A DNA stretch of 39,837 bases, from positions 1-39,837 of IMG/VR virus record IMGVR_UViG_3300047546_001664, one strand, 5' to 3'. This DNA comes from a virus. The stretch's first letter is position 1; every line of letters starts with the position of its first letter. Shown here piece after piece: positions 2,088 to 15,975 of the stretch. Below the pieces are notes generated by a model, which was given only the letters and a program-made list of their open reading frames with translations, did not search any database and was not told where the DNA came from. The translations under genes were made by a program, and so were the position numbers.

Positions 2088-3215
2088 CTACCTAGGGCGA
2101 ACTTTTAAGAACCAGCCGGTGTCATTGCCTTCGATGAGCCAGCGAGGCAGCCAGTTTTTGCGGGAATACGCAACACCAGCGCCTCCCTTGTTACTGACGT
2201 AGCCGCCAGTAGTCAGGTTGGCCTCGCCAAATGGATCGTTGTGGATGAAATGCGTCGGCGTAAATCCGATCACTGCGCTCCAGTGGCCTGTACCACTTGG
2301 GTTGCTGATGGGTCCTTTGTGTAGCCAGCCGACTGGTACGGGGTAGCCGTGAGTAATTTCGGTTTCTAGGTCTTCGACTGTTCCATCCATCTCAAAGGTG
2401 GCGGTTAGTCCCAGTGATTTCAGTGCTGCAATCTGGGCTTTGGGATCGGTGGTGTCGCCGAAACGAGCGCGGATCTTGTTGTACTCGTAGTCGCCAGAGA
2501 TTTTGCCGTAGTAGCGGGCCACCATTGCACAGCTGGAGCTAAAGCACTGGCGATAACCCGTTGCTCCATCGTCTGGTCCGAGCTGGTACTCGTACGCGAC
2601 CTTGAGGATTTTTTCTTTTGGTGCGACCAGTGGTTTCGTGCCAGCGTGCTGGTTCATTAGTTCGATTAACTTACCTGGATAATTTGGATCTGTTGCATAT
2701 CCTTCTTTATGTAACCATTTGGCAGCTTCGTCGCGGGTTGCAGCGTTATTGCAGCCTTTGTAGTTTTTGAAGTCTTTGTACCAGTGGTCGACTAGGTACA
2801 TCACGCAGGACAGCAGATCGGGAAAGTCGATAAAGCTGTCGGTGATCGTGACCCACTGACCGTTGATGAATTCTTGGGTTTTCTTGTCGCTGCCTTCGCC
2901 CTTAAGACCAAAAAAGTTATTTCTCCCGGAGACTAGTTTTCCGTAGTTGGATTCCAGTGCCCATTGGGCGGCTACTAGTTCAGGGAATTTGGCGCCGGCA
3001 ACGCGGGCGGCTTCAAGAATTCCTTCCCAGCTGTTGGGGAAGTTAGTTTGTTTGCCGGCAACGCTCCAGGTTTTGAACCAGCCTTGGTCGCGACCAAGAA
3101 TATGGGGGTTGGCCTTATTGATCGCGGCCTCTAGCTCGGTCAGCGCGGCTGCTTGATGAGGCAGCTGGCGATAATACCGAAAGAGGTCAATCAGGCGGAT
3201 CTTGTTGGTTGGCAT
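2088..3215 (-). CDS. Endolysin: glucosaminidase domain plus C39-like peptidase domain
   Basis: The 375-residue protein combines two wall-active domains. Residues about 55-195 match the FlgJ/LytG-type glucosaminidase pattern, with the likely catalytic Glu in WALESNYGK (E88) and the downstream NNFFGLKG and GYATDPNYPGKL motifs. Residues about 208-370 look like a papain-fold C39-type peptidase, with Cys in QCFSSSCAM (C229), His in GHWSAV (H311) and Asn/Asp in IHNDPFG (about 326-327). Such proteins cut the peptidoglycan glycan strand and cross-links at the end of infection. There is no signal peptide, so release probably needs a holin. The 5' end overlaps the frameshifted extension ending at 3187. 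Confidence 0.9.
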   Translation of the reverse strand: MPTNKIRLIDLFRYYRQLPHQAAALTELEAAINKANPHILGRDQGWFKTWSVAGKQTNFPNSWEGILEAARVAGAKFPELVAAQWALESNYGKLVSGRNNFFGLKGEGSDKKTQEFINGQWVTITDSFIDFPDLLSCVMYLVDHWYKDFKNYKGCNNAATRDEAAKWLHKEGYATDPNYPGKLIELMNQHAGTKPLVAPKEKILKVAYEYQLGPDDGATGYRQCFSSSCAMVARYYGKISGDYEYNKIRARFGDTTDPKAQIAALKSLGLTATFEMDGTVEDLETEITHGYPVPVGWLHKGPISNPSGTGHWSAVIGFTPTHFIHNDPFGEANLTTGGYVSNKGGAGVAYSRKNWLPRWLIEGNDTGWFLKVRPR

Positions 3216-3471
3216 CGGACCAGGGGGAGTGGATATTCATGGCGCCACCCAGAAGGCGGCTTTCGCCGGTTTGTAGTTCGTCATTTGGTGGTTCGTGAAC
3301 CACAACGGGTTTTGGTGTTAATGGCTGATCCGCGTGCCAGTCTTCGATGGCGCGATCCAGGCGTGGTTTGAGCGTGGCGTTGAATTTGTGGTCCTGCGCT
3401 GCTTTGCGTAGGTGATCGCGCCAGCCCTTGTCGCCGAATCGCGCCAGCCAAACTGTGTTGGATCTCAGCGC
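3187..3471 (-). CDS. Frameshifted C-terminal extension of the 3465-3602 gene (94 codons)
   Basis: This open frame has no ATG, GTG or TTG near its 5' end, and an in-frame TAA closes it a few codons further upstream. It lies exactly in the -1 frame of the 45-residue gene, immediately after the heptamer CCCAAAG. A -1 slip would give a 138-residue fusion: a membrane N-terminus plus a soluble, basic domain (VWLARFGDKGWRDHLRKAAQ) and a Pro-rich tail. The frame contains no stop for 94 codons. It overlaps the endolysin start by 29 bases. Expression by frameshift is inferred; a CTG start is the alternative. Confidence 0.6.
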   Translation of the reverse strand, partial: ALRSNTVWLARFGDKGWRDHLRKAAQDHKFNATLKPRLDRAIEDWHADQPLTPKPVVVHEPPNDELQTGESRLLGGAMNIHSPWSDANQQDPPD

Positions 3472-3602
3472 TTTGGGAAAAGCACTTTCAGCGCTTTAAT
3501 GATCAGCTGGATCCAGCTGTTCTCTTTGACCGGGAGGATTGCGATGATCTCGGAGCCGGCGGCAACCAAGATTGCAATCACGGCTGCGGTGGTGGGATCC
3601 AT
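3465..3602 (-). CDS. Small membrane protein of the lysis region, 45 aa (frameshift donor)
   Basis: The 45-residue product starts MDPTTAAVIAILVAAGSEII, a hydrophobic N-terminal segment, then a polar turn and a second amphipathic stretch (WIQLIIKALKVLFPKR). I recall similar tiny proteins in cyanophages, without a proven role. Its location before the endolysin makes a holin-like or lysis-regulating role plausible. The zero-frame stop follows three codons after a CCA AAG slip pair, which would let some ribosomes continue into 3187-3471. No obvious ribosome binding site is seen upstream of the ATG. Confidence 0.7.
   Translation of the reverse strand: MDPTTAAVIAILVAAGSEIIAILPVKENSWIQLIIKALKVLFPKR
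3471..3477 (-). promoter_or_regulatory. Candidate -1 ribosomal slippery heptamer C CCA AAG
   Basis: On the minus strand the heptamer CCCAAAG is in the correct phase (X XXY YYZ) with the upstream gene. It is followed by sequence that can fold: GCGC/GCGC outside, CCAA/UUGG inside, about 30 bases. GGGAAAG is the comparable heptamer in the lambda G/GT frameshift. The phase match is seen in the sequence; use is inferred. Confidence 0.55.
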
Positions 3603-3683: not shown

Positions 3684-4019
3684 GTGGAGCCACTGCTGGG
3701 TATGGACCATCGCATCGAGGATGGCGAATACTTAAACAAAAAGGAAGCAAAGGCGCGATTTAGGCAATCAATTCTTAAACATTGGGAGAACAAGTGTGCC
3801 TACTGTTCTACAGATTTAGGTAGGTCGGCGACGCTGGATCACGTTCACCCCAAGATGCGGGGTGGTCATACGCACCAGCAGAATCTGGTGGCTTGCTGTT
3901 TTGCTTGCAATATCTCGAAGTCGGCCGAGGACTGGATTGAGTGGTACAGGCAGCAGGATTTTTGGGAGCCGTACCGCGAGGATGCAATCGTGCAGTGGAT
4001 TACTGGTGGTCTGCTTTAG
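3684..4019 (+). CDS. HNH endonuclease, free-standing, opposite to its neighbours
   Basis: The protein carries a complete zinc-bound HNH motif: CAYC near residue 39, ATLDHVHP with the DH pair, a central Asn (QQNLV), and the closing CCFACN-x-K. Such enzymes cut double-stranded DNA, and in phages are often selfish inserts. It is read rightward inside a leftward lysis block, which supports later insertion. The start could be GTG 3684 or ATG 3702 (MDHRIEDGEYLN); ATG 3702 looks slightly better. Its 3' end overlaps the end of the convergent gene 4000-4182. Confidence 0.88.
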   Translation: MEPLLGMDHRIEDGEYLNKKEAKARFRQSILKHWENKCAYCSTDLGRSATLDHVHPKMRGGHTHQQNLVACCFACNISKSAEDWIEWYRQQDFWEPYREDAIVQWITGGLL

Positions 4020-4187: not shown

Positions 4188-4451
4188 TTACCGGCCAACT
4201 TTCATTTCAATCTGGCGCACTCTACTTTCAAGATCGCTAAGCCTTTCTTTGGAATCGTTCTTGAGTTCTTGAATATCGGCGGCTACTGTACTAACTGATT
4301 GATCCAGTTTGGCTACCTGCATAAAAAGACCGCCCAGCCCGATGACCGCAGCGGTCAAAAGAGCTGGCACGGCTTGGTTAAATGGGTTGGGGTGTTCAGG
4401 CGCTGCGGCGTAAACCTCTTCGTGGTTGTCCATTGCGAGGCATACTGCCAA
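4188..4451 (-). CDS. Single-span membrane protein with coiled coil (holin-like candidate)
   Basis: One strong membrane segment (about residues 26-47, AVPALLTAAVIGLGGLFMQV) is followed by a charged coiled coil (KLDQSVSTVAADIQELKND to the C-terminus). This layout resembles small phage lysis membrane proteins of the XhlA type and would suit a holin or holin partner. The start is either TTG 4451 or ATG 4433 (MDNHEEVY); the latter lacks a strong ribosome binding site, so I cannot decide. The gene lies between small conserved genes and the endolysin. Confidence 0.65.
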   Translation of the reverse strand: MAVCLAMDNHEEVYAAAPEHPNPFNQAVPALLTAAVIGLGGLFMQVAKLDQSVSTVAADIQELKNDSKERLSDLESRVRQIEMKVGR

Positions 4452-12098: not shown

Positions 12099-12559
12099 AG
12101 CTTTGGTGGATTCCCTACAAGACGCGAGGAGAACGTGCGGGGTGGTACTTGCGATCCAACTGGTGCAAGGCTAGACCCGATGCTGGCTTCAATCTCATTG
12201 AAGTTACCGCCCAGTCCGACGACCTCTCCAATAAATGAACCAATCAAAAGTTGACTGGCTTGCGGCACGGCTTGGGATAAACGGCTATCAAACTCATACA
12301 TCTTGATTTCGCACAAGTAGTTCTTGTCGATTGCATTACTGAAAGCGGCCACCGTAGCCTGCAATGCAGGAGCTGTGACCGAGATGCCTGCTGCCGCTTG
12401 CGTGGCAGTACCAATCAGTGCATTAACAGTGAACGGTGTATAGATCCAGGAATTGCTGTCCCAGGTGACTGTGGTGTTGTAGTAGAAGTTTTGCCAGCGG
12501 ACGTAGGTGGCGGTCTCGTCGAAAATCCGCAGGTATTGAGATTGGGCGCGGTTTGCCAT
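12095..12559 (-). CDS. Minor tail protein after the tape measure, 154 aa
   Basis: The protein sits between the tape measure and the hub, overlapping both by a few bases. It is predicted beta-rich with several aromatic residues (YLRIFDETATYVRWQNFYYN). In lambda-like gene order this slot holds gpM/gpL-type tail tip proteins or a distal tail protein. I do not recognise the exact family; the assignment is from synteny. Confidence 0.7.
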   Translation of the reverse strand: MANRAQSQYLRIFDETATYVRWQNFYYNTTVTWDSNSWIYTPFTVNALIGTATQAAAGISVTAPALQATVAAFSNAIDKNYLCEIKMYEFDSRLSQAVPQASQLLIGSFIGEVVGLGGNFNEIEASIGSSLAPVGSQVPPRTFSSRLVGNPPKL

Positions 12560-15500
12560 CAGCTCACACCTTGGTAGCGGCGACCGCCAGAGGTACGGGA
12601 GTTCTCGAAGATCGTAGCGGCAAAGTCTTGCAGAATCTGCTCCAGGTCCTTAAGGCTGACGTATTTTTCGCCGTTGTTCTGTTGGATTACGGGTCCGGTC
12701 TGCAGGTTGATTGTGCTTGGGAAGCTGTCAATGATGGCTGTACCAGGGCCGCCGCCCGGTTGGCGCGATAGGCCGGTAGCAAGTGGTGCAGTAAGCGGGA
12801 TCGGCGCGGTACTTGGAGTTTTAGTAAGTGGGGCAGCGGGTGTTTCTGTAGAAATGGCAGGTGCTCCCGCTGCTTTCTGCTGCAGTACATAGTCTCTAAA
12901 CGCAATACGAGCGATTGCGTCGCGGGCACGCTGCAAAATATCCGCTTGGATGCTGGCGATGCCTTTTGTAGCGGCAAAACGCTCGGCATCTTTCCAGATC
13001 TTTTCGGCTTGCGCCTTGAGTCCTGGATCTTGGATAGCTCCGGCGCCACCCATCGCGGCGAACGGTGCCCCAGTCATTCCGCCCATGGCGCCAGCGGCGC
13101 GTTCCATGTTGCCGGCGAATTGTCCTGCAGCAGCGGCAACGCCGCCCATTTCTTTTTTGAGTTGGGCGGCGTCGACGGCGGCTTTGAATACCGCGTCGGC
13201 TGCTTTCAACTGCCATTGGGCAATTTGGCCGGCTGTGGTGAGATTATCTTTAGCGATGCGTAGTGCAGATCCTTGTGCTTCAAGTGCTTCGTAGTGAGCG
13301 CGATTGACTACGCCTTCGGCTTTTGCAATTTCTACAACAGCCCGCAACTCTTCGTATTTAAGTTGGACTGCTCGATATGCAGCTTGGGTCCGTGCCAGTT
13401 CAGCTTTAACTTGGGCACGAGTTGCTTCAAGAGCAACGCGAGCATTTTGTACTTCTAGCTCATAGATACGCTCCAGTATTTTGGCGCGTTGTCCTGTGCT
13501 GCTAGTGCGTTCCAGTTCGCGCGTAAGTCCTTCGATTTCTATGTTATTTATTGTTTGAACTGCTTGACTGATAGCAGCAGTCAGTGAAGCACGATTGCTA
13601 AGTGTGCTGGTCTGCTCTTCTAGTGCTCGTGTCGCTTTTTCTGTGTTACGTGCGTACTCCGCTGCGTACTCTGCTACTACAGCTTGCTTACGTTCAATTT
13701 CTATGATGTACGTAGCTTGTTTGTAAACTTCGTTAGCAATGTCTTTTTCAATCTTCGCTTGAGCTACGGTATTTTGGTATATCTTGTACCTGTTTTGGTA
13801 TTCTTCGACAGAAAGTTGACCCGCTTTAAATCGGGCATCGAGTATAGCAAAATCTAGTTGCGCTTGTTTTATTGCTGAGTCTTGATTACGGATTACATTA
13901 TCGCGTTCTAAGGCGGCAATCTTTAACTTTTGCGCTTGTATAGCATTAACAGAATTTACTTCTTGGTTTAAGTACAGGTTGAAGTCTTTTTGTACTTGTA
14001 AGCGCTGCAGTTCATTTTGCAGACGTGTTTTTTGTAGATTACTTTGTGTGTTTTCTAGTTGACTACGGCTTGCTTCCAAATCTTTCAAGGACTGCATGTA
14101 CGATATGTATACGTCTAGTAGAGCTTGTTGTTTTGCTCTTTTAGCCGCGAGATCCGCTTCTTGTTTTTGCAGTTCTGAGTTAGCGATAGCTATATCTCTC
14201 TTTAGTTTAAGTTGTTGCGCAGTAAGATTAACGCTGTCCGTGTTAATCTGCTTTAGCTCTTTTTCTAAATCTGTTTCACTCTGTAGGTATGCTTTTTTAC
14301 GTTCTGCCTCAATTTGCGATATACGTGCTTCTTCGGTAGTACCTTGAATTATCTGCTTATCTATGGCTAAACGCTGTTTTCTCGTCTGCAAATCAACTAC
14401 TCCTGCATCAATAGCAGCTTGGGCAGCGGCAACAAGTTTTTGCTGTTCTTCCGTATTTTGAGGTAAAACTTTTGCTAGTTGTTGGAGGAACGCTCCAACT
14501 GGATTGAGTATGGGTAAGTACGTGTTAAATATCTTGCCTAGTTCTCTTGCGCCTGAAACAACGACGTTAATACCTTTGAGGACAAGATTTACTAGCTGAA
14601 GTACGCCAGCCAGTGCAGTCTGGAGTTCGACTGTAAATACGGCTAATAGAGTATTTACAGTTCCGCTGACTGCGTTCCAGGCGGCTGAAAGCTGTTTTGT
14701 CGCTCTTGTTGAGTCTTGGATACCTGAACCAAGTGAGCCAGTCTGATTAGCGATTTCTTTTGCAATTACTGCACGAGCTTGGTCGTACTTGCCTGCTTCT
14801 ACCAGTAGACGTACTTGATTATCGAGTTCAGCGGTTACATTGATTGTTGATTCGCGCAAAGCTTGAACGTCAAGCTTGCTTAGTGCTGAGCCTAGTTCTG
14901 CTGTTTTCTGGATGGCGGCACCAAAAATTTGGTCGAGCTTTTGGCCGACGGCAGAAAGACCGATGCTTAGGGCCATGCCGGCCATGCCGCCCATCTTTCC
15001 ACCAATAAGACCGCCAGCAGCGCCACCGACGATGGCACCCGGTCCACCGCCAAACAGCATTGGAAAGCCGCCTCCCAAAATGGCGTCAAGAACACCAGGC
15101 CGCTCTAAGCCTGTCGGCGGTGCTTTCGGTCCTTGCATGCCAAAGCCAGCATTTTGAATACGTTCACGCCTAGTAGCTTCTTCACTTAACCGCTGGCGAG
15201 CGCCTGCACTAGCAGCGCCCTCACGACTACGGATTGCAGCAGCAGCTTCTTGGGCTTGAATAAGTAAATCGGTTGCTAAATTTTGTGCTTCAGTAAAGAA
15301 AGTATTCCAGCTATTCTTTATGTTCATAGCTTTTGCTGTTGCGGCTGCTTGTAGTTCCTGTCCTAATTGTGCGGCCTCTGTAAAGAAGGTGTTCCAGCTA
15401 TTTCTAATGTTTAGTGTTTTTGCTTTTGCAGCTACCTGCACCTCTTGACCTAGGTCAGCAGCTTCTGTAAAGAAGGTGTTCCAGCTGTTTCTGATGTTTA

Positions 15501-15975
15501 GTGTTTTTGCTTTTGCGTTTGTTTGTAACTCTCTGCCTAGTTCGTCTGCTTGAATAAAAAACGTGTTCCAGGCTTGCTGGATCTCGCGCCCGCGTACCAC
15601 TGCTGGAGGTAGCGCAGGACCTTGTTGCCCAAAAGGTGCTATTGAAGGATTTACACGTCTTTGATTGGCTATTTCTTGAGCAACTAATGAGTTCTGACGT
15701 GCACGGGCTGCGTTAGCCTCTCCGAGAGCTTTTACGTATTCTTGAATAGCTTTTGTTTCTGCTTGTGTGCCAGCACCTACGCGCTCAAGAGACGCTGCAG
15801 CTCGATTTAAGTTGTTTACGTAATTTTCTATGTTTTGAACTAATCCACCACGGGCACCTACAACATCGTTAAGGCTGTCTACAGCTTGAGCAGTTTTATT
15901 TATGTCTGAGCGAAGCTGCTCTAGGGCACGTACGCCGACTACGCCGATTTCAATATCAGCTCTATAAGCGGCCAC
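12559..15975 (-). CDS. Tail tape measure protein, 1138 aa
   Basis: This is the longest gene of the window. Long charged coiled coils occupy about residues 540-950, and a Gly-rich hydrophobic segment (GGGFPMLFGGGPGAIVGGAA ... MAGMALSIGLSAVG) near residues 300-350 would cross the host membrane on DNA ejection. Near residues 135-255 four 29-residue tandem repeats begin WNTFF. At the usual 1.5 angstrom per residue the tail would be about 170 nm, which argues for a siphovirus. It follows the tail chaperone genes as expected. The start is GTG (MAAYRADIEIGVVG), with only a weak ribosome binding site. Confidence 0.92.
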   Translation of the reverse strand: MAAYRADIEIGVVGVRALEQLRSDINKTAQAVDSLNDVVGARGGLVQNIENYVNNLNRAAASLERVGAGTQAETKAIQEYVKALGEANAARARQNSLVAQEIANQRRVNPSIAPFGQQGPALPPAVVRGREIQQAWNTFFIQADELGRELQTNAKAKTLNIRNSWNTFFTEAADLGQEVQVAAKAKTLNIRNSWNTFFTEAAQLGQELQAAATAKAMNIKNSWNTFFTEAQNLATDLLIQAQEAAAAIRSREGAASAGARQRLSEEATRRERIQNAGFGMQGPKAPPTGLERPGVLDAILGGGFPMLFGGGPGAIVGGAAGGLIGGKMGGMAGMALSIGLSAVGQKLDQIFGAAIQKTAELGSALSKLDVQALRESTINVTAELDNQVRLLVEAGKYDQARAVIAKEIANQTGSLGSGIQDSTRATKQLSAAWNAVSGTVNTLLAVFTVELQTALAGVLQLVNLVLKGINVVVSGARELGKIFNTYLPILNPVGAFLQQLAKVLPQNTEEQQKLVAAAQAAIDAGVVDLQTRKQRLAIDKQIIQGTTEEARISQIEAERKKAYLQSETDLEKELKQINTDSVNLTAQQLKLKRDIAIANSELQKQEADLAAKRAKQQALLDVYISYMQSLKDLEASRSQLENTQSNLQKTRLQNELQRLQVQKDFNLYLNQEVNSVNAIQAQKLKIAALERDNVIRNQDSAIKQAQLDFAILDARFKAGQLSVEEYQNRYKIYQNTVAQAKIEKDIANEVYKQATYIIEIERKQAVVAEYAAEYARNTEKATRALEEQTSTLSNRASLTAAISQAVQTINNIEIEGLTRELERTSSTGQRAKILERIYELEVQNARVALEATRAQVKAELARTQAAYRAVQLKYEELRAVVEIAKAEGVVNRAHYEALEAQGSALRIAKDNLTTAGQIAQWQLKAADAVFKAAVDAAQLKKEMGGVAAAAGQFAGNMERAAGAMGGMTGAPFAAMGGAGAIQDPGLKAQAEKIWKDAERFAATKGIASIQADILQRARDAIARIAFRDYVLQQKAAGAPAISTETPAAPLTKTPSTAPIPLTAPLATGLSRQPGGGPGTAIIDSFPSTINLQTGPVIQQNNGEKYVSLKDLEQILQDFAATIFENSRTSGGRRYQGVS
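15223..15570 (-). repeat. Four tandem 87-bp repeats inside the tape measure gene
   Basis: The word TTCCAGSYWDT-like start (ttccagctattc, ttccagctattt, ttccagctgttt, ttccaggcttgc) recurs at 15305, 15392, 15479 and 15566, exactly 87 bp apart. Each unit encodes 29 residues of the form WNTFFTEAADLGQEV plus KAKTLNIRNS. The middle copies are nearly identical in DNA, so the expansion looks recent. It could lengthen the tail by whole units. Confidence 0.85.

Follow-up and report, generated by a model that had tools for sequence, protein, structure and literature searches.

A conserved site for predicted programmed -1 frameshifting in a lysis-region membrane gene of cyanophages

A programmed -1 ribosomal frameshift site is proposed here for a small membrane gene in the lysis region of cyanophages (hereafter the recoded gene), by which both a 45-aa membrane protein and an extended form of it would be made. 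Judged from sequence comparisons, this is very probably the best explanation of the locus. The slip site, the fixed frame and the coding selection on the extension together give strong comparative support for frameshifting, and comparative genomics renders programmed -1 frameshifting near-certain; no product has been observed and biochemical proof is lacking. Frameshifting of this kind is itself known, and is best known in its programmed form from phage tail chaperones and insertion sequences. What is new, as far as could be found, is its occurrence in a lysis-region membrane gene of dsDNA phages: the literature covered, which excluded most subscription journals, describes frameshifting in no lysis-region gene of any dsDNA phage, cyanophages included. 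Conserved -1 frameshifting in dsDNA phages would thereby gain a gene class that belongs neither to tails nor to transposons. The recoded gene spans environmental cyanophages and cultured phages whose annotation splits or misses it, meaning that gene callers overlook a conserved cyanophage protein, and it provides a testable candidate for how cyanophages make and tune a lysis-region protein.

The stretch of DNA analysed (the window) is the 39,837-bp IMG/VR virus record IMGVR_UViG_3300047546_001664, which contains tail, major head, portal, integrase and primase genes (see Table 1 for the features of the locus). The membrane ORF ends with the zero-frame codons TTC CCA AAG CGC TGA, and its heptamer is in phase for tandem -1 slippage. 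The first ATG, GTG or TTG in the open -1 frame is a GTG at position 3303, far 3' of the junction. A first-pass annotation of the sequence had proposed a frameshift on the basis of this arrangement, i.e., a membrane ORF followed by a start-less -1 frame that is closed upstream by TAA, with a correctly phased heptamer at the switch point; all of these elements were present, and the 138-residue length it gave for the fusion was reproduced (44 + 94 aa). At the rate seen in the window's long stop-to-stop frames, an efficient heptamer (V_VVA_AAR) would fall within the last four codons by chance with a probability of approximately 0.2%. The endolysin start at 3215 falls inside the 3' end of the extension, with the ATG 29 nt upstream of the extension end. 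On the opposite strand, an HNH endonuclease gene (3684-4019, plus strand) lies between the upstream small transmembrane (TM) gene and the recoded gene. Residues S17, E18, N28 and Q32 of the 45-aa protein were invariant across the 19 rows of a family alignment. This membrane part belongs to PHROG 22542 (unknown function) and, weakly, to PHROG 15106; the PHROG 22542 profile (49 positions) spans the zero-frame part only, and the frameshift product is not represented.

Table 1. Features of the recoded locus in the window
Feature	Position	Strand	Remarks
Endolysin gene	2088..3215	(-)	Glucosaminidase PF01832 and peptidase C39-like PF13529
Recoded gene, whole	3187..3602	(-)	45-aa short form and predicted 138-aa frameshift fusion
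-1-frame extension	3187..3471	(-)	94 codons after the slip, then TGA (3189-3187); supported by dN/dS
Membrane gene, zero-frame (short form)	3465..3602	(-)	45 aa; sequence MDPTTAAVIAILVAAGSEIIAILPVKENSWIQLIIKALKVLFPKR, then stop
Slippery heptamer C_CCA_AAG	3471..3477	(-)	One codon 5' of the zero-frame TGA
TAA closing the -1 frame upstream of the slip site	3496..3498	(-)	
Upstream small TM and coiled-coil-like gene	4188..4451	(-)	Second lysis-cassette candidate

Homologues were collected from two unbiased sources, namely, an extension-only query, which matched 87 viral loci (80 kept), and an endolysin-only query, which gave 80 loci and included relatives without the extension. Four more queries and annotated phage regions brought the total to 476 loci. 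Peptides spanning the junction were part of two later queries; the first two, free of them, had by then led to the same result. The membrane ORF and the extension ORF were each detected by their own profile. As the loci are not phylogenetically independent, p-values overstate certainty. A -1-frame extension was present in 232 of the 274 distinct gene ends (224 detected by profile, seven with short Arg/Lys-rich -1 tails and one truncated at a contig end). An in-phase slippery heptamer occurred in the last codons of 231 of these 232 homologues, always leading into the -1 frame, compared with 4 of the 42 relatives without a -1 extension (two more carried it just beyond the four-codon limit). No +1-frame extension by slippage was found among the 274 gene ends. 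The comparison of homologues that the first-pass annotation had suggested, for a conserved heptamer and frame arrangement, thus came out decisively in favor of its proposal. One gene, L268, has G_AAA_AAG, which is imperfect for tandem slippage.

Across the 230 genes tabulated by motif, A_AAA_AAG was the most frequent (157), followed by C_CCA_AAG (53), G_GGA_AAG (14), C_CCA_AAA (5) and A_AAA_AAC (1), and the heptamer lay exactly 10 nt before the stop in 219 genes and 7 nt before it in ten. In the A_AAA_AAG group, the preceding codon may encode Gly, Ala, Pro, Arg, Ser, Gln or Val, and its third position is always A. The peptide Phe-Pro-Lys was written as slippery TTC CCA AAR in all 57 genes with the extension versus 6 of 26 without it (Fisher p = 3e-14), and the extension of L008 is 90% alike to that of the window while their heptamers differ (AAAAAAG vs. 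CCCAAAG). It is the slip that is conserved rather than the peptide, and the heptamer is kept beyond coding need. In L155, L150, L149, L135, L131, L139 and L098, CCCAAAG is kept and a 28-aa Arg/Lys-rich -1 tail replaces the full extension. The case that had been named as a possible refutation, separate genes of which the second has its own start, is realised in S-CRES2 (and in S-CRES3, judging from its ORF layout), yet the heptamer is absent there; these genes are regarded as an alternative evolutionary solution and not as a refutation of frameshifting.

Past the zero-frame stop, pairwise dN/dS was 0.17 in the -1 frame versus 1.26 and 2.01 in the other frames, and changes in the extension at the three codon positions numbered 5024, 3109 and 12244, respectively, a pattern indicative of purifying selection on the extension in the -1 frame only. 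The extension consists of a conserved helical region, a proline-rich linker and the C-terminal motif LQTGESRLLGGAMxIxxPW (core (L)GGxMxIxxPW). It had been described as basic in the first-pass annotation, a description that needs correction: with 12 K+R, 14 D+E and 5 H, the extension in the window is slightly acidic. AlphaFold predicted a single long helix plus a small unit at the C-terminus (mean pLDDT 74, pTM 0.34), a model too weak for a fold search, and a sequence search of the PDB gave no match. A link to cyanomyoviruses via the C-terminal motif (P-RSM4 PRSM4_145, S-CRM01 g111) was considered and is no more than a lead, with weak tblastn hits only (E 2-7) and no profile match. The single-ORF proteins of P-RSM4 (L168) and S-CRM01 (L169) carry a similar C-terminal motif (GGxM.LRAPW in S-CRM01), and any relation to the extension is suggestive only.

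The same arrangement was found in the cultured cyanosiphoviruses S-CBS1, S-CBS3, KBS-S-2A and S-EIV1, and in the T7-like cyanopodoviruses S-B28, WH11-B and 7B11-B; at these sites, the phage records hold separate hypothetical proteins or no annotation. In S-CBP1, DSL-LC07, P60 and S-CBS4, the membrane protein lacks the extension and the heptamer alike. In the T7-like relatives, the recoded gene sits between the tail fibre and terminase genes, the position of holin gene 17.5 in T7. No relative was returned from host genomes by the window query, and another host-genome query returned one metagenome-assembled contig (TMED88, L477), also with GGA AAA AAG ATC TGA.

Frameshift stimulators are common, though not obligatory. 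An SD-like upstream stimulator was seen in only 5 of 230 genes and is not supported. Nor did the foldable downstream sequence that the first-pass annotation had claimed withstand comparison with shuffled sequences: of 200 dinucleotide shuffles of the 81 nt 3' of the slip site in the window, 140 matched or exceeded the stability of the native sequence (z = +0.56). In the relatives, the 80 nt downstream showed modestly more structure than shuffles did (mean z -1.35). For a subgroup with AAAAAAG (e.g., S-CBS3 and L304), a strong stem of ~12 bp is predicted ~45 nt downstream of the slip site. C_CCA_AAG, G_GGA_AAG and A_AAA_AAG rank highest in efficiency among -1 motifs in E. coli, where without stimulators they give a shift of only ~0.3% (Sharma et al., PMC4066793), so the ratio of long to short product may be low. 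Either the motif acts near-autonomously at a low ratio, or a stimulator is specific to some groups.

Other origins of the extension account less well for these data. Sequencing error or a pseudogene is excluded by hundreds of independent contigs together with the cultured genomes. If ribosomes terminated and reinitiated, the extension would be a separate protein begun at a non-standard CTG or TTG over the zero-frame stop; of 230 genes, 154 do carry CTG as the -1 codon there and 14 carry TTG, and a separate gene with a start of its own exists in S-CRES2. However, roughly one gene in four has CTA, TTA or GTA at this place, only one has GTG and none has ATG, which implies that leucine and not a start codon is conserved over the stop. 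For this reason reinitiation is rejected, and it would also leave unexplained the conservation of the heptamer, the loss of slippery codons where the extension is missing and the fixed -1 frame; its remaining probability is very small. Slippage of the polymerase on a run of A, yielding mRNAs with a base gained or lost, is conceivable for the 157 of 230 genes with A6G, but the other 73, including the window, have CCCAAAG, GGGAAAG, CCCAAAA or one AAAAAAC, mostly with three to four A only, and the sites hold the exact ribosomal phase X_XXY_YYZ. Transcriptional slippage is accordingly rejected for the CCCAAAG and GGGAAAG genes and, overall, retains hardly any credence.

Under programmed ribosomal frameshifting, most ribosomes would translate the 45-aa membrane protein and stop, and a minority would slip tRNA-Pro/tRNA-Lys back by one base on X_XXA_AAG and append 94 aa; in relatives, the slipping pair would be tRNA-Lys/tRNA-Lys or tRNA-Gly/tRNA-Lys. 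The two products would share exactly the same N-terminal membrane segment, and the slip rate would determine their ratio. The membrane protein contains one strong hydrophobic stretch (Kyte-Doolittle up to 2.5; no dedicated TM predictor was used) and an amphipathic C-terminal segment, and because basic residues flank the membrane segment on the cytoplasmic side, the extension of the long form is probably cytoplasmic. The recoded gene is encoded together with the endolysin and adjoins or overlaps the endolysin gene in most genomes. Among the 136 genes with a placeable endolysin start, 126 have an extension that ends past this start; none of 22 relatives without the extension reaches it, these ending 17-53 nt short, and translational coupling is therefore possible: the ribosome making the long form would terminate just inside the endolysin start and may couple both genes.

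What the two products do is inferred with much less certainty, and a 'two-product lysis gene' is used as a working model. That the short form is holin-like, and that the minor long form joins it in assemblies and adjusts the timing of lysis, acting as an isoform of the antiholin-like or endolysin-linked type, is an inference with roughly even chances of being right. The fuller scheme, in which frameshifting sets the cyanophage lysis clock by supplying a holin and a C-terminally extended regulator from one gene while the frameshifted ribosome feeds endolysin translation, is put forward only tentatively. No holin family match was obtained in PHROGs, Pfam or NCBIfam for either part, and as no family library calls either part a holin, filing the gene as one is unjustified. 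It remains a substantial possibility, if somewhat short of an even one, that the frameshift is real and the gene encodes another membrane protein (e.g., an antiholin or regulator), the upstream TM/coiled-coil gene being the holin. Besides the missing family match, this would agree with the recurrence of small TM/coiled-coil genes upstream in S-CBS1, S-CBS3, P60 and 7B11-B, which all fall into PHROGs without a known function, and with S-EIV1, where no endolysin gene directly follows the recoded gene on its strand; that the recoded gene directly adjoins and overlaps the endolysin gene in most genomes speaks against it. The frameshift might also serve mainly to feed endolysin translation by coupling, with the extension protein secondary, as the overlap of extension stop and endolysin start would allow. 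This is considered unlikely, given the clear protein-level selection on the extension and the T7-like phages and S-EIV1, which shift without a directly following endolysin.

The recoded gene shares features with several known systems. As in E. coli dnaX (tau/gamma) and the IS1/IS3-family elements, tandem slippage would take place on A_AAA_AAG or V_VVA_AAG (PMC4066793). It differs from these in having neither an SD-like upstream stimulator nor an established downstream one, and in that the zero frame, which gives its short product, encodes a protein of a phage lysis region. An analogous logic would be that of dual-start holin/antiholin pairs such as lambda S105/S107, with two isoforms made from a single lysis gene at a set ratio, but the isoforms of the recoded gene would differ at the C-terminus and arise by frameshifting, and its role in lysis is inferred only. 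For phage MS2, recoding or termination was once proposed to control lysis-gene expression (Kastelein 1982 and Berkhout 1987, as listed in PMC5009743); MS2 has an overlapping lysis gene in an ssRNA phage, without a fixed in-frame heptamer and fused product. The tail-assembly chaperones (lambda gpG/gpGT) likewise belong to dsDNA phages, with an XXXYYYZ motif near the 3' end of a small gene and a minor C-terminally extended product, and the AAAAAAG motif is used in the tail-chaperone frameshifts of several phages (PMC3483164). The window contains a separate tail-chaperone-like ORF (16566-16216, minus strand) and, behind it in the +1 (or -2) frame, an ORF that lacks a start, near a 1138-aa ORF; there is no XXXYYYZ near this junction, which is possibly the phage's tail frameshift via a different signal. 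Antisense to the 1138-aa ORF (12559-15975), ARAGORN called a tRNA with a stop anticodon (TTA) at 13369-13445 (plus strand), which is probably spurious. The recoded gene does not meet the G/GT position upstream of a tape-measure gene; instead, it lies 5' of the endolysin in the window and beside the endolysin or terminase in its relatives, and, in contrast to the tail chaperones, it encodes a 45-aa membrane product and is conserved in cyanophages of at least two morphotypes.
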